A stretch of DNA of 52,115 nucleotides from Deltaproteobacteria bacterium (lineage in GTDB: Bacteria > Desulfobacterota > Syntrophia > Syntrophales > UBA2210). Shown here piece by piece: positions 5,882 through 52,115 of this stretch. A program made the position numbers and the translations under genes. Positions within the stretch are counted from its first letter, which is position 1, and the number at the start of each line of letters is the position of its first letter. The stretch covers positions 1 to 52,115 of the forward strand of contig JAFGBH010000035.1 in NCBI GenBank assembly GCA_016933215.1, in the 5' to 3' direction. The notes below the pieces were generated by a model. The model saw only the letters and a list, made by a program, of their open reading frames with translations. It had not been told where the DNA came from and made no database searches.

Positions 5882-6000
5882 TTGAACTGAACAGCGAGCG
5901 CATTCCCCGTTGCTTGCAGCGGGGTTAGCGAGCGAATATAAAATAAAAATTTTTCCTTAACAGTCGGAGATTCCCCGCAACTTGTTGCGGGGTGCTTCAA
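5882..6000 (+). repeat. Family A palindromic repeat, copy 2
   Basis: A 119-bp complete copy starting TTGAACTGAACAGCG and ending GTGCTTCAA, so the ends are short inverted repeats (TTGAA/TTCAA). It contains a hairpin CCCCG-TTGC/GCA-CGGGG flanked by direct repeats AGCGAGCG, an AT-rich middle, and a second hairpin CCCCGCAAC/GTTGCGGGG. It sits in the gap between two minus-strand genes. It is nearly identical to the copy at 51971-52087. Confidence 0.88.
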
Positions 6001-8566: not shown

Positions 8567-9919
8567 TCAGTCCATCACGCCATATTTTTTCAGTTTTTTA
8601 TGAAGGGTTCTCCTCGTGATTCCAAGACGTCGCGCCGCCTCACTTTTATTACCTGCCGCCGCCTCCAAGGTTTCTAAAACGGTATTCCTTTCCACATCTT
8701 CCAGGGGCATGTTTCCGTGATTGCTATACTCAATTGCGGGTTCGTTCCTGATTATCAGCGATAAATCTTCCTCATCCAGATATTCGGCTCTTGAGAGAAC
8801 GACGGCTCTCTCAATCGTATTCATTACTTCTCGTATGTTTCCTGGCCACGCATACTTGAGAAGACTGTCCATTGCCTGAGGGGTGAGGCCCTTGATATCT
8901 TTGCGATTCTTTTCGGCAAATTGCGTGAGGAAATGCTGTGCCAGGAGGGGAATATCCTCCCTCCTCTCCCGAAGGGACGGCATATTCAGGGAAACAACAT
9001 TCAGACGGTAAAAAAGGTCTTCCCGGAAATTTCCCTTCTCAACCTCTTCAATAAGGTTCCGGTTCGTCGCGGCGATTACCCTTACGTCTATCTTTATTAC
9101 CTCATCACCGCCCACACGTACTATTTCTCTTTCCTGCAATACGCGCAGTAATTTTACCTGCATAGCCAGTGACATCTCGCTGACCTCATCCAGAAAGATG
9201 CTTCCTCCATCGGCCTGGCGGAATTTCCCCTCCTTCCTCCTTTCGGCGCCCGTGAAAGAGCCCTTTTCATGACCGAAGAGTTCCGATTCGAGGAGCGTTT
9301 CGGTAATTGCGGCACAATTGATCTTAACAAAGGGCTCCTTCTTTCGCAGGCTGTTAAAATGTATAGCCCCGGCGATCAATTCTTTGCCTGTACCAGACTC
9401 TCCCGTCAGAAGAACCGTTGCATCGGAGGGGGCCACCTGTGCAACGGTTTCCATGAGTTTCTCCATGGCATCACTGCGGCCGATAATGTTCTGTCTGTCA
9501 AATCTGACACCCAGATTTTCTCTTAAGAGACGATTTTCCTCCCGTAGCTGCCGATGCTCCATGGCCCTTTCTATGATAATCTGCAGTTCGTCAAAATCGA
9601 GCGGTTTCGTAAGATAATCATAGGCTCCCTTTTTAAGGGCCTCGACGGCAGATTCAACGGAAGAAAAAGCGGTCATTATAATGACTGGAATGGCGGGATT
9701 TATGGTTTTTATTTCGTGAAGGGCCTCAATACCTGACATTCTCATCATTCGTACGTCCATCAATATCAGGTCGAAACTCCTTTCCCGAACTTTTTCTATG
9801 GCGGTGTCACCATCGTCCGCCTCGAAGATGACATATCCCCATCCGGAAAGGAGGGTCTTGAGCATCGTGCGATGGGCCCGATCATCATCAACAACTAATA
9901 CAGCACCTTTAGCGTTCAT
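8567..9919 (-). CDS. Sigma-54-dependent response regulator, NtrC/ZraR type
   Basis: Three modules are visible. A receiver domain with acidic pocket D11-D13 and phospho-acceptor D55. An AAA+ sigma-54 activation domain with Walker A GESGTGKE and the sigma-54-contact loop GSFTGA (Ser in place of the usual Ala at the second position, a common variant). A C-terminal Fis-type HTH (about 415-450; SEAARRLGITRRTLHKKL). It should activate RNA polymerase holding sigma-54 from distant enhancer sites. It follows the histidine kinase gene by 38 bp and is surely its partner. A near-consensus sigma-54 promoter lies just upstream of the kinase gene, on the other strand, and is a natural target. Confidence 0.95.
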   Translation of the reverse strand: MNAKGAVLVVDDDRAHRTMLKTLLSGWGYVIFEADDGDTAIEKVRERSFDLILMDVRMMRMSGIEALHEIKTINPAIPVIIMTAFSSVESAVEALKKGAYDYLTKPLDFDELQIIIERAMEHRQLREENRLLRENLGVRFDRQNIIGRSDAMEKLMETVAQVAPSDATVLLTGESGTGKELIAGAIHFNSLRKKEPFVKINCAAITETLLESELFGHEKGSFTGAERRKEGKFRQADGGSIFLDEVSEMSLAMQVKLLRVLQEREIVRVGGDEVIKIDVRVIAATNRNLIEEVEKGNFREDLFYRLNVVSLNMPSLRERREDIPLLAQHFLTQFAEKNRKDIKGLTPQAMDSLLKYAWPGNIREVMNTIERAVVLSRAEYLDEEDLSLIIRNEPAIEYSNHGNMPLEDVERNTVLETLEAAAGNKSEAARRLGITRRTLHKKLKKYGVMD

Positions 9920-9957: not shown

Positions 9958-11700
9958 CTAAGCCGGCAGTACAATCGTAACAGTCGTTCCCTTTCCCTCT
10001 TTACTTTCCACTTTAATTTCTCCCTGGTGGGCCTCTACAATTCTGTGAACGATTGCAAGTCCGAGACCCGTTCCGGAGGGCTTGGTGGTATAGTAAGGAT
10101 CAAACACCTTCCCCAGATCCTTCCGGGCTATTCCCTTTCCAGTATCGGAGATAACGATTTTTATCTTCTTAACCCCATCCCGGGAAAGATCCGCAGTCAG
10201 TACCCCACCCTCATCCATCGCCTGTATGGCATTGAGATAGAGATTAAGGAATATCTGGTTCATCCTGTCTGGATCCAGAAGGACCGTGTCGATTTCGGGA
10301 GCGATAGTTGTTTTTATTTCTATATTTTTTTCCCGAGCCTGGGCCTCTACCATCTTGAGAGAACTTTGAATGAGATCTCTGATTGCAGTCTTCCGTAACT
10401 GCATGTCCATTGGGCGGGCAAACTCCAAGAGTTCTCCTATTACCCTGTTTAAGCGATCAACTTCCTGCACCATGATCTCAGCCGTCTCCTGATCTTCAGG
10501 GACATCATTATACCGCTGGCGAAAGTATGTAGCAAAGCCCTTAATCGAGCTCAGGGGATTTCGAATCTCATGAGCGATTCCCGCAGCCAGTCTTCCCAGA
10601 GATGCCAGTCGCTGAGAACGTTCAACTTCCCTTCTCAGTTTCCTGATCTCGGTGAGATCCCTGAAAAGCAAAACATCTCCAAGGGAATCCCCCTCATCTC
10701 CTCTCAATATGGTTGCTGTTACCTCTAAAGGAACAATCTTTCCGTCCGACCGGGCGCAATCAATGGCTCTTGATAGTATCTCATCCCCTGAATCCAGCTC
10801 ATCGACAATCGTTCTCAGTGATTCAGGTAATACAGATTCCGCCTCCTTCCCCACGGCCTCTTGTGTAGAGTATTTAAGGAGCGTCTCCGCCGCCTGATTG
10901 AAGGAGGTTATCTTCCCGTCAGTCCCTATGGCCAGGATACCCATAGGGAGATTTTCCACAAGGGTATCGGAAAACGCCTTTATTATGGAGAGCGATGCCC
11001 TGGCCGTTCGGTAGCCATGGGCAAGAAAAAGAGAAATTATTCCGGCAAATCCAATGAGAAGAAGAATGAGGGCCAAAATAATCGTGTTTCGTGCATCCGC
11101 TTTTCGTGCCGATTCGAGGGGACCCATATCAAGACCGACGAAAACGATAGGCCGGGACAGATCTTCCCCCTCCTGCGATGATATGCGCAACCTCAAAAGT
11201 TCATGTGGTGAGTCGGTGCGAACAAAGGCAGTCAATTGACCGGGAAGGGGCGATGTCTTGCCATAGACCTCGAAAACCTTCTCGGAATCCTCTCCCTCGA
11301 ACTGCCGCCAATCGGGTGTATTGGACCCGTAAATTTTCTCTGTATCCAACTGAACCCAGTAAACCTGACCCACCTTGGAAGGATCGCTATGCGCAAGTAT
11401 CTTGCCGTTTTGATCGGTGACGAGCAGATAGTCCACATCGGGCTGCTGCGCAGTCTCGGTCACCAATTTCTGTATCTGTGCCCCGTCCCATCGCATTCCG
11501 AGAAGTCCGGTCCTGGTTCCGGCTTCAAAAGAGCGTATGAGAGCTGTGCCTCTCTCCAGAAGAAGTCTTTCGGTGTATTCCTTTTGCTTATTGATACCTT
11601 CAACGGCTATATAAAAAAATATAGGAGCCAGAATAACGACGGCGCCTATGATTATCCAGGGCGGTATATTAATCCAGGATTTCTTATCTTCTTTCTTCAT
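9958..11700 (-). CDS. Membrane sensor histidine kinase with PAS domain (ZraS/AtoS type)
   Basis: An N-terminal transmembrane helix (about 12-33) and a second one (about 205-230) enclose a periplasmic sensor region of roughly 170 residues. Then come a PAS domain (LVENLPMGILAIGTDGKI onward), a HisKA domain with phospho-acceptor H377 in GIAHEIRNPLSS, and a HATPase with N, G1 (DTGKGI) and G2 (GTGLGLAI) boxes. Start chosen at ATG 11700, preceded by GGAG; an in-frame TTG lies at 11715. It feeds the NtrC-type regulator encoded next. The signal sensed is not evident: the sensor region shows no obvious His/Cys metal-binding cluster. Confidence 0.93.
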   Translation of the reverse strand: MKKEDKKSWINIPPWIIIGAVVILAPIFFYIAVEGINKQKEYTERLLLERGTALIRSFEAGTRTGLLGMRWDGAQIQKLVTETAQQPDVDYLLVTDQNGKILAHSDPSKVGQVYWVQLDTEKIYGSNTPDWRQFEGEDSEKVFEVYGKTSPLPGQLTAFVRTDSPHELLRLRISSQEGEDLSRPIVFVGLDMGPLESARKADARNTIILALILLLIGFAGIISLFLAHGYRTARASLSIIKAFSDTLVENLPMGILAIGTDGKITSFNQAAETLLKYSTQEAVGKEAESVLPESLRTIVDELDSGDEILSRAIDCARSDGKIVPLEVTATILRGDEGDSLGDVLLFRDLTEIRKLRREVERSQRLASLGRLAAGIAHEIRNPLSSIKGFATYFRQRYNDVPEDQETAEIMVQEVDRLNRVIGELLEFARPMDMQLRKTAIRDLIQSSLKMVEAQAREKNIEIKTTIAPEIDTVLLDPDRMNQIFLNLYLNAIQAMDEGGVLTADLSRDGVKKIKIVISDTGKGIARKDLGKVFDPYYTTKPSGTGLGLAIVHRIVEAHQGEIKVESKEGKGTTVTIVLPA

Positions 11701-11795
11701 CACTAATCTCCGCAACGAGCAACATTATTGCCGGATCACCAAAAGTTTCATAACTTCGATTTCTCAGAACGCCATGCTTCATACTGGAATCAAGC

Positions 11796-11859
11796 GTATC
11801 CCACAAGACTGGATACTTATTATTCAGCAACATACCATAGATGGATACTTAATATCCAT
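11796..11859. promoter_or_regulatory. Candidate activator (enhancer) sites upstream of the sigma-54 promoter
   Basis: Two inverted repeats built on the same half-site. GTATCC-N9-GGATAC lies at 11796-11816 and ATGGAT-N7-ATCCAT at 11841-11859; the decamer TGGATACTTA occurs in both (11810 and 11842). They lie about 100-160 bp upstream of the -24 element of the promoter at 11955, the normal distance for enhancer-binding proteins of the NtrC class. A perfect palindrome ATATCATGATAT at 11905-11916 and arms GTACAT/ATGTAC (11898 and 11929) lie closer in and could bind another factor such as IHF or a repressor. Confidence 0.45.
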
Positions 11860-11954: not shown

Positions 11955-11971
11955 CTGGCACAGCAATTGCT
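11955..11971 (+). promoter_or_regulatory. Sigma-54 promoter
   Basis: CTGGCAC-N5-TTGCT, with the invariant GG at 11957-11958 and GC at 11969-11970 separated by exactly ten bases. This matches the sigma-54 consensus at nearly every position. The predicted transcription start is about 11981-11983, which is where a perfect hairpin begins. It points away from the histidine kinase gene and towards the short RNA and the SH3-domain gene. Confidence 0.82.
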
Positions 11972-11981
11972 AGACTATTAA

Positions 11982-12050
11982 TAAAACAATCATGTTTTAT
12001 AAAAAGGATCAGCATTGGTTTTCCTCCTTTCCAAGAGCTGATCCTTTTTT
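11982..12050 (+). ncRNA. Putative sigma-54-dependent small RNA, about 69 nt, two hairpins
   Basis: The stretch between the sigma-54 promoter and a strong terminator has no ORF but folds fully. Hairpin 1 is ATAAAAC-N6-GTTTTAT at 11981-12000. Hairpin 2 is the terminator, 13 bp (AAAAAGGATCAGC with GCTGATCCTTTTT), continued above a small internal loop by TTGG/CCAA. The apical loop at 12019-12030 contains TCCTCC, which is complementary to Shine-Dalgarno sequences. That combination suggests a trans-acting regulator of translation. The alternative is a leader attenuator for the SH3 gene at 12190; the strength of the terminator and the compact size favour a separate RNA. No known family was recognised. 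Confidence 0.55.
12001..12050 (+). terminator. Strong rho-independent terminator
   Basis: A perfect 13-bp inverted repeat, AAAAAGGATCAGC at 12001-12013 and GCTGATCCTTTTT at 12037-12049, ending in a run of six T (12045-12050). Because the stem begins with A residues it could also stop transcription from the opposite strand. It lies only about 20 nt after the predicted sigma-54 start. Confidence 0.88.
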
Positions 12051-12189: not shown

Positions 12190-12885
12190 ATGATCATGAA
12201 GAAAATACCTCTCTTTACCGGAACCGTCCTTATCATTTTAGGTCTCTGTCTCATTTCCGGCCAGAGTCGTGCCGATGACGACGCCTATGTTACGGACTCC
12301 TTTAAGGTCACGCTCCGCACGGGACCGAGTACGGAAAACAAGATAATCTCTATGGTTTCATCGGGTCAACACGTCGAAATTCTGAGATCCGAAAACGGCT
12401 GGAGTCTTGTTCGTCTCAAGGAGAAGAGCACTGATAACGAGGGATGGATACTGAGCAGGTACCTTATGAAGAGAAGGCCCTGGATGGCTGAGGCAAAATC
12501 CTTACAGGACGCAAACGCCGAAATGAAAGTAAGATTGCCTAAAATCTCCGACGAGCTTGATGACGCCCTTCGTCGGGAAAAAGTGCTTGTCACGAGGCTT
12601 GAAGAAAAAAGTTCTCAGTTTGATACCCTGAAAAACAAATATGAGTCTTTAAAAACCGGTGCCGCTTCCTATGTCGAACTCAAAGAAAAGGAGGCCGTAA
12701 CGCAAAAGGCGCTCGAAAAAACTCAGGAAGAACTCCAGAGACTCACAGAAGAAAACAGGATTTTAATATCTTCAAAGAGAAACCTTTGGTTCCTCTCAGG
12801 TGCACTTGTCCTCCTCTTCGGTCTCATCATAGGGCTGGCAATCGGTCGGAAACAGACCAGACACCGATCGTCTCTCTACTCTTGA
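12190..12885 (+). CDS. SH3-domain envelope protein with coiled coil and C-terminal membrane anchor (YgiM/TIGR04211-like)
   Basis: A 231-residue protein with a cleavable-type signal sequence (about 1-28), a bacterial SH3 domain (about 30-95; ...TLRTGPSTENKIIS... and GWILSRYL), a long charged coiled coil (about 105-195) and a C-terminal transmembrane helix (about 200-222) followed by a basic tail. This is the layout of the TIGR04211/YgiM family, thought to bind the cell wall; the exact role is unknown. ATG 12190 is chosen because the signal sequence starts there; an upstream in-frame codon at 12136 would add residues that do not look like a signal. It lies 140 bp after the terminator at 12050. 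Confidence 0.82.
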   Translation: MIMKKIPLFTGTVLIILGLCLISGQSRADDDAYVTDSFKVTLRTGPSTENKIISMVSSGQHVEILRSENGWSLVRLKEKSTDNEGWILSRYLMKRRPWMAEAKSLQDANAEMKVRLPKISDELDDALRREKVLVTRLEEKSSQFDTLKNKYESLKTGAASYVELKEKEAVTQKALEKTQEELQRLTEENRILISSKRNLWFLSGALVLLFGLIIGLAIGRKQTRHRSSLYS

Positions 12886-17291: not shown

Positions 17292-17406
17292 GCTGCTTCT
17301 CTCCTTTACGCTTCTGATTGGGCATTAACTTATTCATTCTTACATATTATGTCAAACACTATTTAGCCGGTTTTTGACAGGAAAACCATAATCTGATAGA
17401 AGTCTA

Positions 17407-17556
17407 TTGAACTGAACAGCGAGCGCATTCCCCGTTGCTTGCAGCGGGGTTAGCGAGCGACTAAAAAATAAAATTTTCCTTAACAGTCGAAGATTCCCCG
17501 CAACTGTTGAAGCAAAAGTGGAGATCCCGCTTATACGGGATTGCGGGGAGCTTCAA
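17407..17556 (+). repeat. Family A palindromic repeat, copy 3 (extended variant)
   Basis: The first 100 bp match the copies at 5882 and 51971 almost exactly. In the second hairpin the short loop is replaced by about 35 bp that includes the nested hairpin ATCCCG-N6-CGGGAT at 17524-17541, shared with copy 1. The ends are TTGAACT and AGCTTCAA. The copy stops only five bases before the GGAGGAG ribosome site of the next gene, so the terminal hairpin could affect its translation. Confidence 0.87.
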
Positions 17557-17573
17557 TCCTTTGGAGGAGTGCT

Positions 17574-22710: not shown

Positions 22711-22784
22711 AATGGAAAATGTTTGTTTTCTATTCACTCGCTAACCCCGCCGCAGGCAACGGGGAATCCCCTCGCTGTTCATCA
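22711..22784 (-). repeat. Family A palindromic repeat, copy 4 (truncated)
   Basis: Only one half of the element is present, in reverse orientation: GGAAAATG, AT-rich sequence, then TCACTCGCTAACCCCGCCGCAG, CAACGGGGAAT and CTCGCTGTTCA. The second hairpin half is missing. It lies between the Na/Pi symporter gene and the Pho box. Confidence 0.7.
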
Positions 22785-22860
22785 ATCCGAATAAGACCAT
22801 ATCACCTTCTTGCAGAATGTTTCTCTAATGTAGCTCTACATCATAGATAATTTAACACAA

Positions 22861-37918: not shown

Positions 37919-38027
37919 CAAGAACTTCACAGCAAAAAATGATATCGAGCCTCCGGTTGAAACTCAGAGGTATGCCTATATGTTTGCCATTTACCGCAGT
38001 TAAATATCTTATCGATAAAGATCAAGT

Positions 38028-38135
38028 GAAGCTCCCCGCCCACAGGGCGGGGCTTCCTGGTAAGGAATATGTTTGTTTTATATTGCGCCCCTTACCCCGC
38101 CTACAAGGCGGGGCTTGCGGGTGCGCTTCCGGTCA
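38028..38135 (+). repeat. Family B palindromic repeat, copy 2
   Basis: A 108-bp copy with a perfect hairpin GAAGCTCCCCGCCC-ACA-GGGCGGGGCTTC, an AT-rich spacer, a second hairpin CCCCGCCT-ACA-AGGCGGGG and the end TTCCGGTCA. It is very similar to the copy at 2636. It stops eight bases before the surviving piece of a MOT1-type transporter gene, so its insertion may have broken that gene. Confidence 0.85.
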
Positions 38136-51938: not shown

Positions 51939-51970
51939 CCGCCCTCCTTATGTTCTTAATAAGAGCAAAT

Positions 51971-52087
51971 TTGAACTGAACAGCGAGCGCATTCCCCGTT
52001 GCTTGCAGCGGGGTTAGCGAGCGAATACAAAATAAAATTTTCCTTAACAGTCGGAGATTCCTCGCAACTTGTTGCGGGGAGCTTCAA
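51971..52087 (+). repeat. Family A palindromic repeat, copy 5
   Basis: A full 117-bp copy, TTGAACTG...GAGCTTCAA, with one base change in the second hairpin arm (CCTCGC for CCCCGC). It lies just upstream of the uxaA/larA-type operon. Nothing further is recognisable to the end of the window. Confidence 0.88.
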
Positions 52088-52115
52088 TCAAATTTGACAT
52101 AATCAAAGATTACCC

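Follow-up and report, generated by a model that had tools for sequence, protein, structure and literature searches.

A probable small RNA gene behind a sigma-54 promoter

The question raised by this locus is whether the DNA next to a ZraSR-like sensor kinase gene codes for a small RNA (sRNA) that is switched on by the neighbouring two-component system (TCS) and, if so, on what such an RNA would act. The window, by which we mean the whole stretch of 52,115 nucleotides that was analysed, has on its plus strand a match to the sigma-54 promoter pattern TGGCAC-N5-TTGCT at 11956-11971 (TGGCACAGCAATTGCT). Exact matches to TGGCACN5TTGCW number nine in the 2.69-Mb genome against two for the reversed control, and the element is present at all six copies of the RNA described below, which upholds the sigma-54 promoter of the original prediction. 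With the start taken from the -12 position and the end from the terminator, the predicted RNA is about 69 nt long (11982-12050, +) and would be transcribed divergently from the kinase gene. It is predicted to fold into a 7-bp 5' hairpin (11982-11999, +) followed by a terminator hairpin and U-tract (12001-12050, +) made up of a 13-bp stem, an inner UUGG/CCAA stem, the loop UUUUCCUCCUUU and T6. The energy of this fold is -24.9 kcal/mol (z -6.4), and none of 200 shuffled sequences folded as well. The exposed loop (12019-12030, +) is an anti-Shine-Dalgarno (aSD) sequence resembling the 3' tail of 16S rRNA, with UCCUCC at 12022-12027. Its CCUCCUUUC part matches the 3' tail that 16S rRNA usually has in bacteria. 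No Rfam 15 covariance model, those of GlmY and GlmZ included, matched anywhere in the window at gathering thresholds. The gene 3' of the RNA (12190-12885, +) codes for a TIGR04211 SH3-domain membrane-anchored protein.

Copies of the RNA and their common structure

Six copies of the hairpin were found in three genera. Three are in the window genome (G000), namely, in the window and on contigs C85 and C13, one is in G003, and two are in G005 on contigs C5 and C8. The stem and terminator are complete in five of the six, the copy at G000:C13:6943 being degenerate. A DNA search of 40 relatives matched the terminator hairpin in two genera, twice in G005 and once in G003, and a match in G028 covered part of the hairpin only, without the loop. 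With a covariance model that covered only the hairpin and deliberately excluded the promoter, 155 genomes of the order gave five matches above 50 bits, all of them in G000 (window and C85), G003, and G005. Each of these five has, starting 44-55 bp upstream, a sigma-54 element with a score of 11/12 or more; an element scoring at least 9 was upstream of none of the 23 weaker matches, the background being 0.02 per 100 bp. The weak matches in the order (below 40 bits) have neither promoter nor loop and were set aside as ordinary terminators. A promoter-plus-loop scan of 84,980 species, which may omit the window's own genome or near ones, gave 28 matches. The hairpin was present only in L070, which is G003, recorded as a 'Deltaproteobacteria bacterium' MAG from Lake Pavin, and the other matches were discarded as chance. 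Two contigs of Deltaproteobacteria MAG-89 (L064, L077) carry an identical promoter-like plus GGTTTCTCTCCTT stretch; the hairpin is missing, and the stretch is more like an unrelated repeat than a copy of the RNA. Since genuine matches are confined to G000, G003, and G005, the family is narrow.

Comparison of the five full copies showed two-sided compensatory changes in 6 of the 15 stem pairs, and 97.3% of the stem cells are paired as against 31-56% in controls in which the partner was slid. The loop core CUCCUUU is invariant in these five copies. The whole of UUUUCCUCCUUU is identical in four, and C85 has UUUAACUCCUUU, its loop reading GGUUUAACUCCUUUUUCC, which is a weaker match to Shine-Dalgarno (SD) sequences. 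A loop core that stays fixed on changing stems points to selection on the aSD loop that had been noted in the window. The search for the hairpin in other genomes, which had been put forward as a check, thus recovered promoter, terminator stem, and loop in G000, G003, and G005, and the predicted 13-bp terminator with six T is borne out by the fold and by its conservation in other copies. The RNA had been described as two stem-loops, and here only the terminator hairpin stood, because the 7-bp hairpin of the window was not found in any other copy. The stretch from start to loop in the other copies is variable (27-53 nt), with CCAAUACA near the start common to three copies. The two-hairpin design was therefore dropped, and the conserved object, as judged from the aligned copies, is a leader followed by one terminator hairpin.

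The surroundings of the copies differ. On C5 of G005 the RNA is at the equivalent place, divergent from the same kinase gene. The copies on C85 and on C8 of G005 run into convergent gene ends and therefore stand alone and are not leaders, which together with the conserved hairpin agrees with the claim of a free-standing small RNA gene. The C13 copy (G000:C13:6901-7000, L083) has the promoter, the enhancers described below, and the aSD loop, its outer stem is weak, it has no U-tract, and its sigma-54 element (TGGTACAATACTTGCA) is nearer to the hairpin than in the full copies; it may have decayed. A gene for a C39-type peptidase lies about 250 nt downstream of it in the same direction. Two of the sRNA copies are flanked by a dispersed intergenic repeat (GGGGTTAGCGAGCG ... 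GCGGGGAGCTTCAAT), which is found many times in the genome and also at the ends of contigs. In the window it is at 37-219, 5882-6000, 17406-17557, 22714-22786, 38024-38121, and 51968-52088. The idea that the C85 and C13 copies were carried by a mobile cassette was rejected since the flank that they share is this separate repeat.

The two-component system and its paired enhancers

The two genes beside the RNA code for an NtrC-type sigma-54 activator (8567-9919, -) with Response_reg, Sigma54_activat, and HTH_8 domains, for which ZraR is the best model, and for a sensor histidine kinase (9958-11700, -) with an sCache_3_2 sensor domain, for which ZraS is the best model. The domains are those expected of the activator and kinase originally placed next door; one correction is that the RNA is read in the opposite direction to the kinase gene, away from it. 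The scores, 595.2 of 760 bits for the ZraR equivalog model and 461.5 of 479 bits for ZraS, are both below cut-off, and by these scores the pair would be relatives of ZraSR and are not called equivalogs. Orthologs of the regulator in eight relatives are 69-75% identical. A weaker sigma-54-like element (CGGCAATAATGTTGCT, 11718-11733, -) faces the kinase gene and would be a divergent promoter sharing the enhancers of the RNA; a kinase-directed element of this kind is present at most of the TCS loci. Transcription from it (11700-11733, -) would begin some 5-7 nt upstream of the kinase ATG, and likewise at C5 of G005, so that the mRNA would be nearly leaderless unless the true start is later.

Each of the six RNA copies is preceded by a pair of 17-bp palindromes (TGGATA-N5-TATCCA) whose spacing is exactly 32 bp. 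In the window they are TGGATACTTATTATTCA (11810-11826, +) at about -171 and TGGATACTTAATATCCA (11842-11858, +) at about -139, and these positions hold within 5 bp in every copy. When 19 genomes of the family were scanned for the pair, with up to three mismatches allowed, there were matches at all six RNA copies and one match each in G001, G002, G007, G010, G013, and G015, every one of the latter at the locus of the orthologous TCS. The reversed pattern gave one match in total in the 19 genomes, and two further isolated matches with three mismatches in g5 genomes look like chance. Nine genomes of the family, these six together with G000, G003, and G005, encode a regulator that shares at least 69% identity with that of the window; the other ten genomes of the family, where the best regulator match is about 50%, gave no convincing enhancer pair. 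Within the family, chance matches aside, the enhancer pair thus appears to be confined to the RNA genes and to the flank of the same kinase/regulator pair. This co-occurrence suggests that the regulator binds the palindromes. It lends weight to the proposed control by the adjoining NtrC-type activator, and we regard activation of the RNA by the neighbouring system as likely.

The output at the regulator locus is not the same in all relatives. In G007, G010, G013, and G015 this kinase gene is separated from a divergent gene for a DegP/HtrA-type protease (TIGR02037, above cut-off) by the same enhancer pair and a sigma-54 promoter, and G001 has the same arrangement. Neither RNA nor protease was found at the G002 locus. 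Among relatives that keep the kinase and regulator, conservation of the RNA therefore holds in part: G005 has it, whereas g2 and g3 retain the regulator and enhancers and not the RNA, the promoter in g2 driving a predicted DegP-type protease. The degP gene of the window genome itself (C24) had no such enhancer pair in the scan. A MarR-type regulator gene lies behind degP in the operon under the same enhancer in two relatives, G010:C57 (L104) and G007:C72 (L108). Because the output in relatives is a periplasmic protease, a role of the kinase/regulator pair in envelope stress would be the natural reading.

Proposed action, candidate targets and alternatives

We propose that the kinase would sense an envelope or periplasmic signal, probably a stress, and phosphorylate the product of the adjacent gene, the NtrC-type activator, which in turn would bind the two palindromes and fire the sigma-54 promoters of the RNA copies, three loci in the window genome, and probably that of its own operon. 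The RNA would then have a 5' leader that varies and a single hairpin serving both as transcription terminator and as display platform for UUUUCCUCCUUU, and its loop would pair with extended SD sequences of the AAAGGAGGAAA type and, independently of Hfq, block the start of translation on a set of mRNAs. Hfq (PF17209) had no match in G000, G002, G003, G005, G010, and G015, and the control search was positive in five known genomes. The evidence from sequence, which comprises the promoter and its enhancers, the terminator with its covarying stem, the fixed core of the loop, the multiple copies, and the absence of Hfq, makes it very likely that this is a real, regulated small-RNA gene family. We consider it reasonably probable that the family as a whole is an Hfq-independent, trans-acting one, activated by a ZraSR-like system and blocking ribosome-binding sites by its terminator loop. 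For the SD-blocking action taken by itself the balance tips modestly in favour.

The targets predicted for such pairing form a short list, and the shutdown of many mRNAs that was first envisaged would be speculative. Each genome has about 4-7 exact AAAGGAGGAAA-ATG sites, barely above what is expected from purine-rich ribosome-binding sites. Orthologous TrpB-like PLP enzymes in G003 and G005 (L155, L157) have ribosome-binding sites, GAAAGGAGGAAA, that rank with the best partners predicted for the loop and give predicted duplexes of -25.3 and -23.6. Other candidates with an exact SD are an OmpA-type protein in G003 and the exported proteins DctP and SBBP in the window genome. This short and mixed list is suggestive, a lead and not proof, and since only three genomes carry the RNA, conservation cannot rank the targets. 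The small number of strongly matching mRNA sites would also suit an RNA that is real and regulator-driven but whose loop acts on a protein or another RNA, either as a decoy of the 16S tail for an initiation or maturation factor or as a sponge for a GGAGG-bearing RNA, and so would a loop core that is more strongly conserved than the stems and reads like the 16S 3' tail. We think this unlikely, because no candidate partner was identified and aSD loops of known sRNAs such as NfeR1 act via SD pairing (PMC10746234).

The remaining explanations would take the loop, the strand or the RNA itself out of the account. That the loop is a by-product of a terminator and the output is the downstream gene, read through a leaky terminator as from a leader or attenuator, would be favoured by a gene in the same direction about 140-250 nt downstream of the window, G005:C5, G003, and C13 copies and by the lack of a U-tract in C13. 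However, the C85 and G005:C8 copies meet convergent gene ends, the downstream genes are unrelated among copies, and a fixed aSD loop on changing stems would be left unexplained, so that we hold this quite improbable. It is more doubtful still that the minus strand is the functional one, as a hairpin displaying GGAGGA (a CsrA-type sponge) or as a small ORF with the SD AAAGGAGG and an ATG. The reverse strand does fold equally well, and in the window it reads GGAAAGGAGGAAAACCAATG, but every full copy has its sigma-54 promoter and U-tract on the plus strand, T-tracts of the minus strand are lacking in G003 and G005:C5 (CCCTGTTCG, CCCCTGGTT), and the other copies have lost the ATG. The mini-ORF with its SD is not conserved, and comparison largely refutes a functional minus strand. 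That a chance promoter-like sequence precedes an ordinary terminator, or that a dispersed repeat carries both, has hardly any probability left: the C85 and C13 copies do share their upstream flank, but this flank is the separate repeat, found in many places without the RNA, and the co-occurrence of promoter, enhancer, and hairpin at six places in three genera refutes this reading. We retain the sRNA that blocks ribosome-binding sites as the preferred reading.

Under a conserved sigma-54 enhancer, a stress TCS may have swapped its output from the DegP-type protease gene of the relatives to a multi-copy RNA with a terminator loop that mimics the 16S rRNA tail, so that its enhancer-defined regulon would be entirely non-coding and would act as an Hfq-free, SD-directed brake on the synthesis of exported proteins. 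We put this forward only tentatively. It would be a clean natural experiment in regulatory evolution: some genera would have put a protease, and others a small RNA, under one regulator and its paired enhancer. The RNA would also represent a minimal sRNA design for bacteria in which Hfq is not detectable, with termination of transcription and the anti-SD seed combined in a single hairpin. The enhancer consensus makes the targets of the regulator readable from sequence and hence opens the circuit to tests in a heterologous host.

Comparison with known systems

Non-coding outputs of envelope stress responses that also control DegP-type proteases are RybB, MicA, and CpxQ. These are under sigma-E or Cpx control and depend on Hfq, whereas the RNA described here has a sigma-54 promoter and does not fit the Hfq-dependent class, Hfq having had no match in the six genomes searched. 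It also differs from the ZraSR arrangement, in which zraP is the divergent gene, as this place is taken by the sRNA in the window and G005 and by a DegP-type protease in g2. With sRNAs activated by an adjacent TCS through sigma-54 and enhancers it shares two features, the promoter at all six copies and the 32-bp palindrome pairs, with predicted binding, at the copies and the orthologous TCS loci.

In Myxococcus xanthus, also of the former Deltaproteobacteria, the Pxr sRNA has a predicted sigma-54 promoter and enhancer region beside the genes for the NtrC-type PxrR and the kinase PxrK (PMC5684412), and is likewise a sigma-54 sRNA with its own regulator and kinase. However, Pxr has three conserved stem-loops and lies downstream of pxrR, features that are absent here, where one conserved anti-SD hairpin is divergent from the kinase gene and occurs in several unlinked copies. 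GlmY is a sigma-54-dependent sRNA beside QseE/QseF that is tied to envelope homeostasis (PMC8745638, PMC6075780) and acts through RapZ/GlmZ, whereas the window RNA has no Rfam match and no structural similarity to it. Dv_sRNA2 of Desulfovibrio vulgaris, from a related group, is a DAP-chip target of the adjacent response regulator DVU0679 (PMC3333781); it lies downstream of the regulator gene and is likened to the window RNA by description and not by sequence. The alpha-r14 sRNAs and NfeR1 of alphaproteobacteria have a conserved anti-SD motif in unpaired loops on varying stems and repress translation initiation regions (PMC10746234), but they carry CCUCCUCCC in each of three hairpins and are controlled by LsrB/NtrC, whereas the window RNA has a single hairpin, with UUUUCCUCCUUU in its terminator loop, under sigma-54 control. 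Judged against Pxr, alpha-r14, and the Rfam families, the RNA is thus a new family that joins the traits of sigma-54/TCS sRNAs with those of anti-SD-loop sRNAs, and its apparent distinguishing traits are the use of the terminator loop as the seed and the swap of output from protease to RNA.
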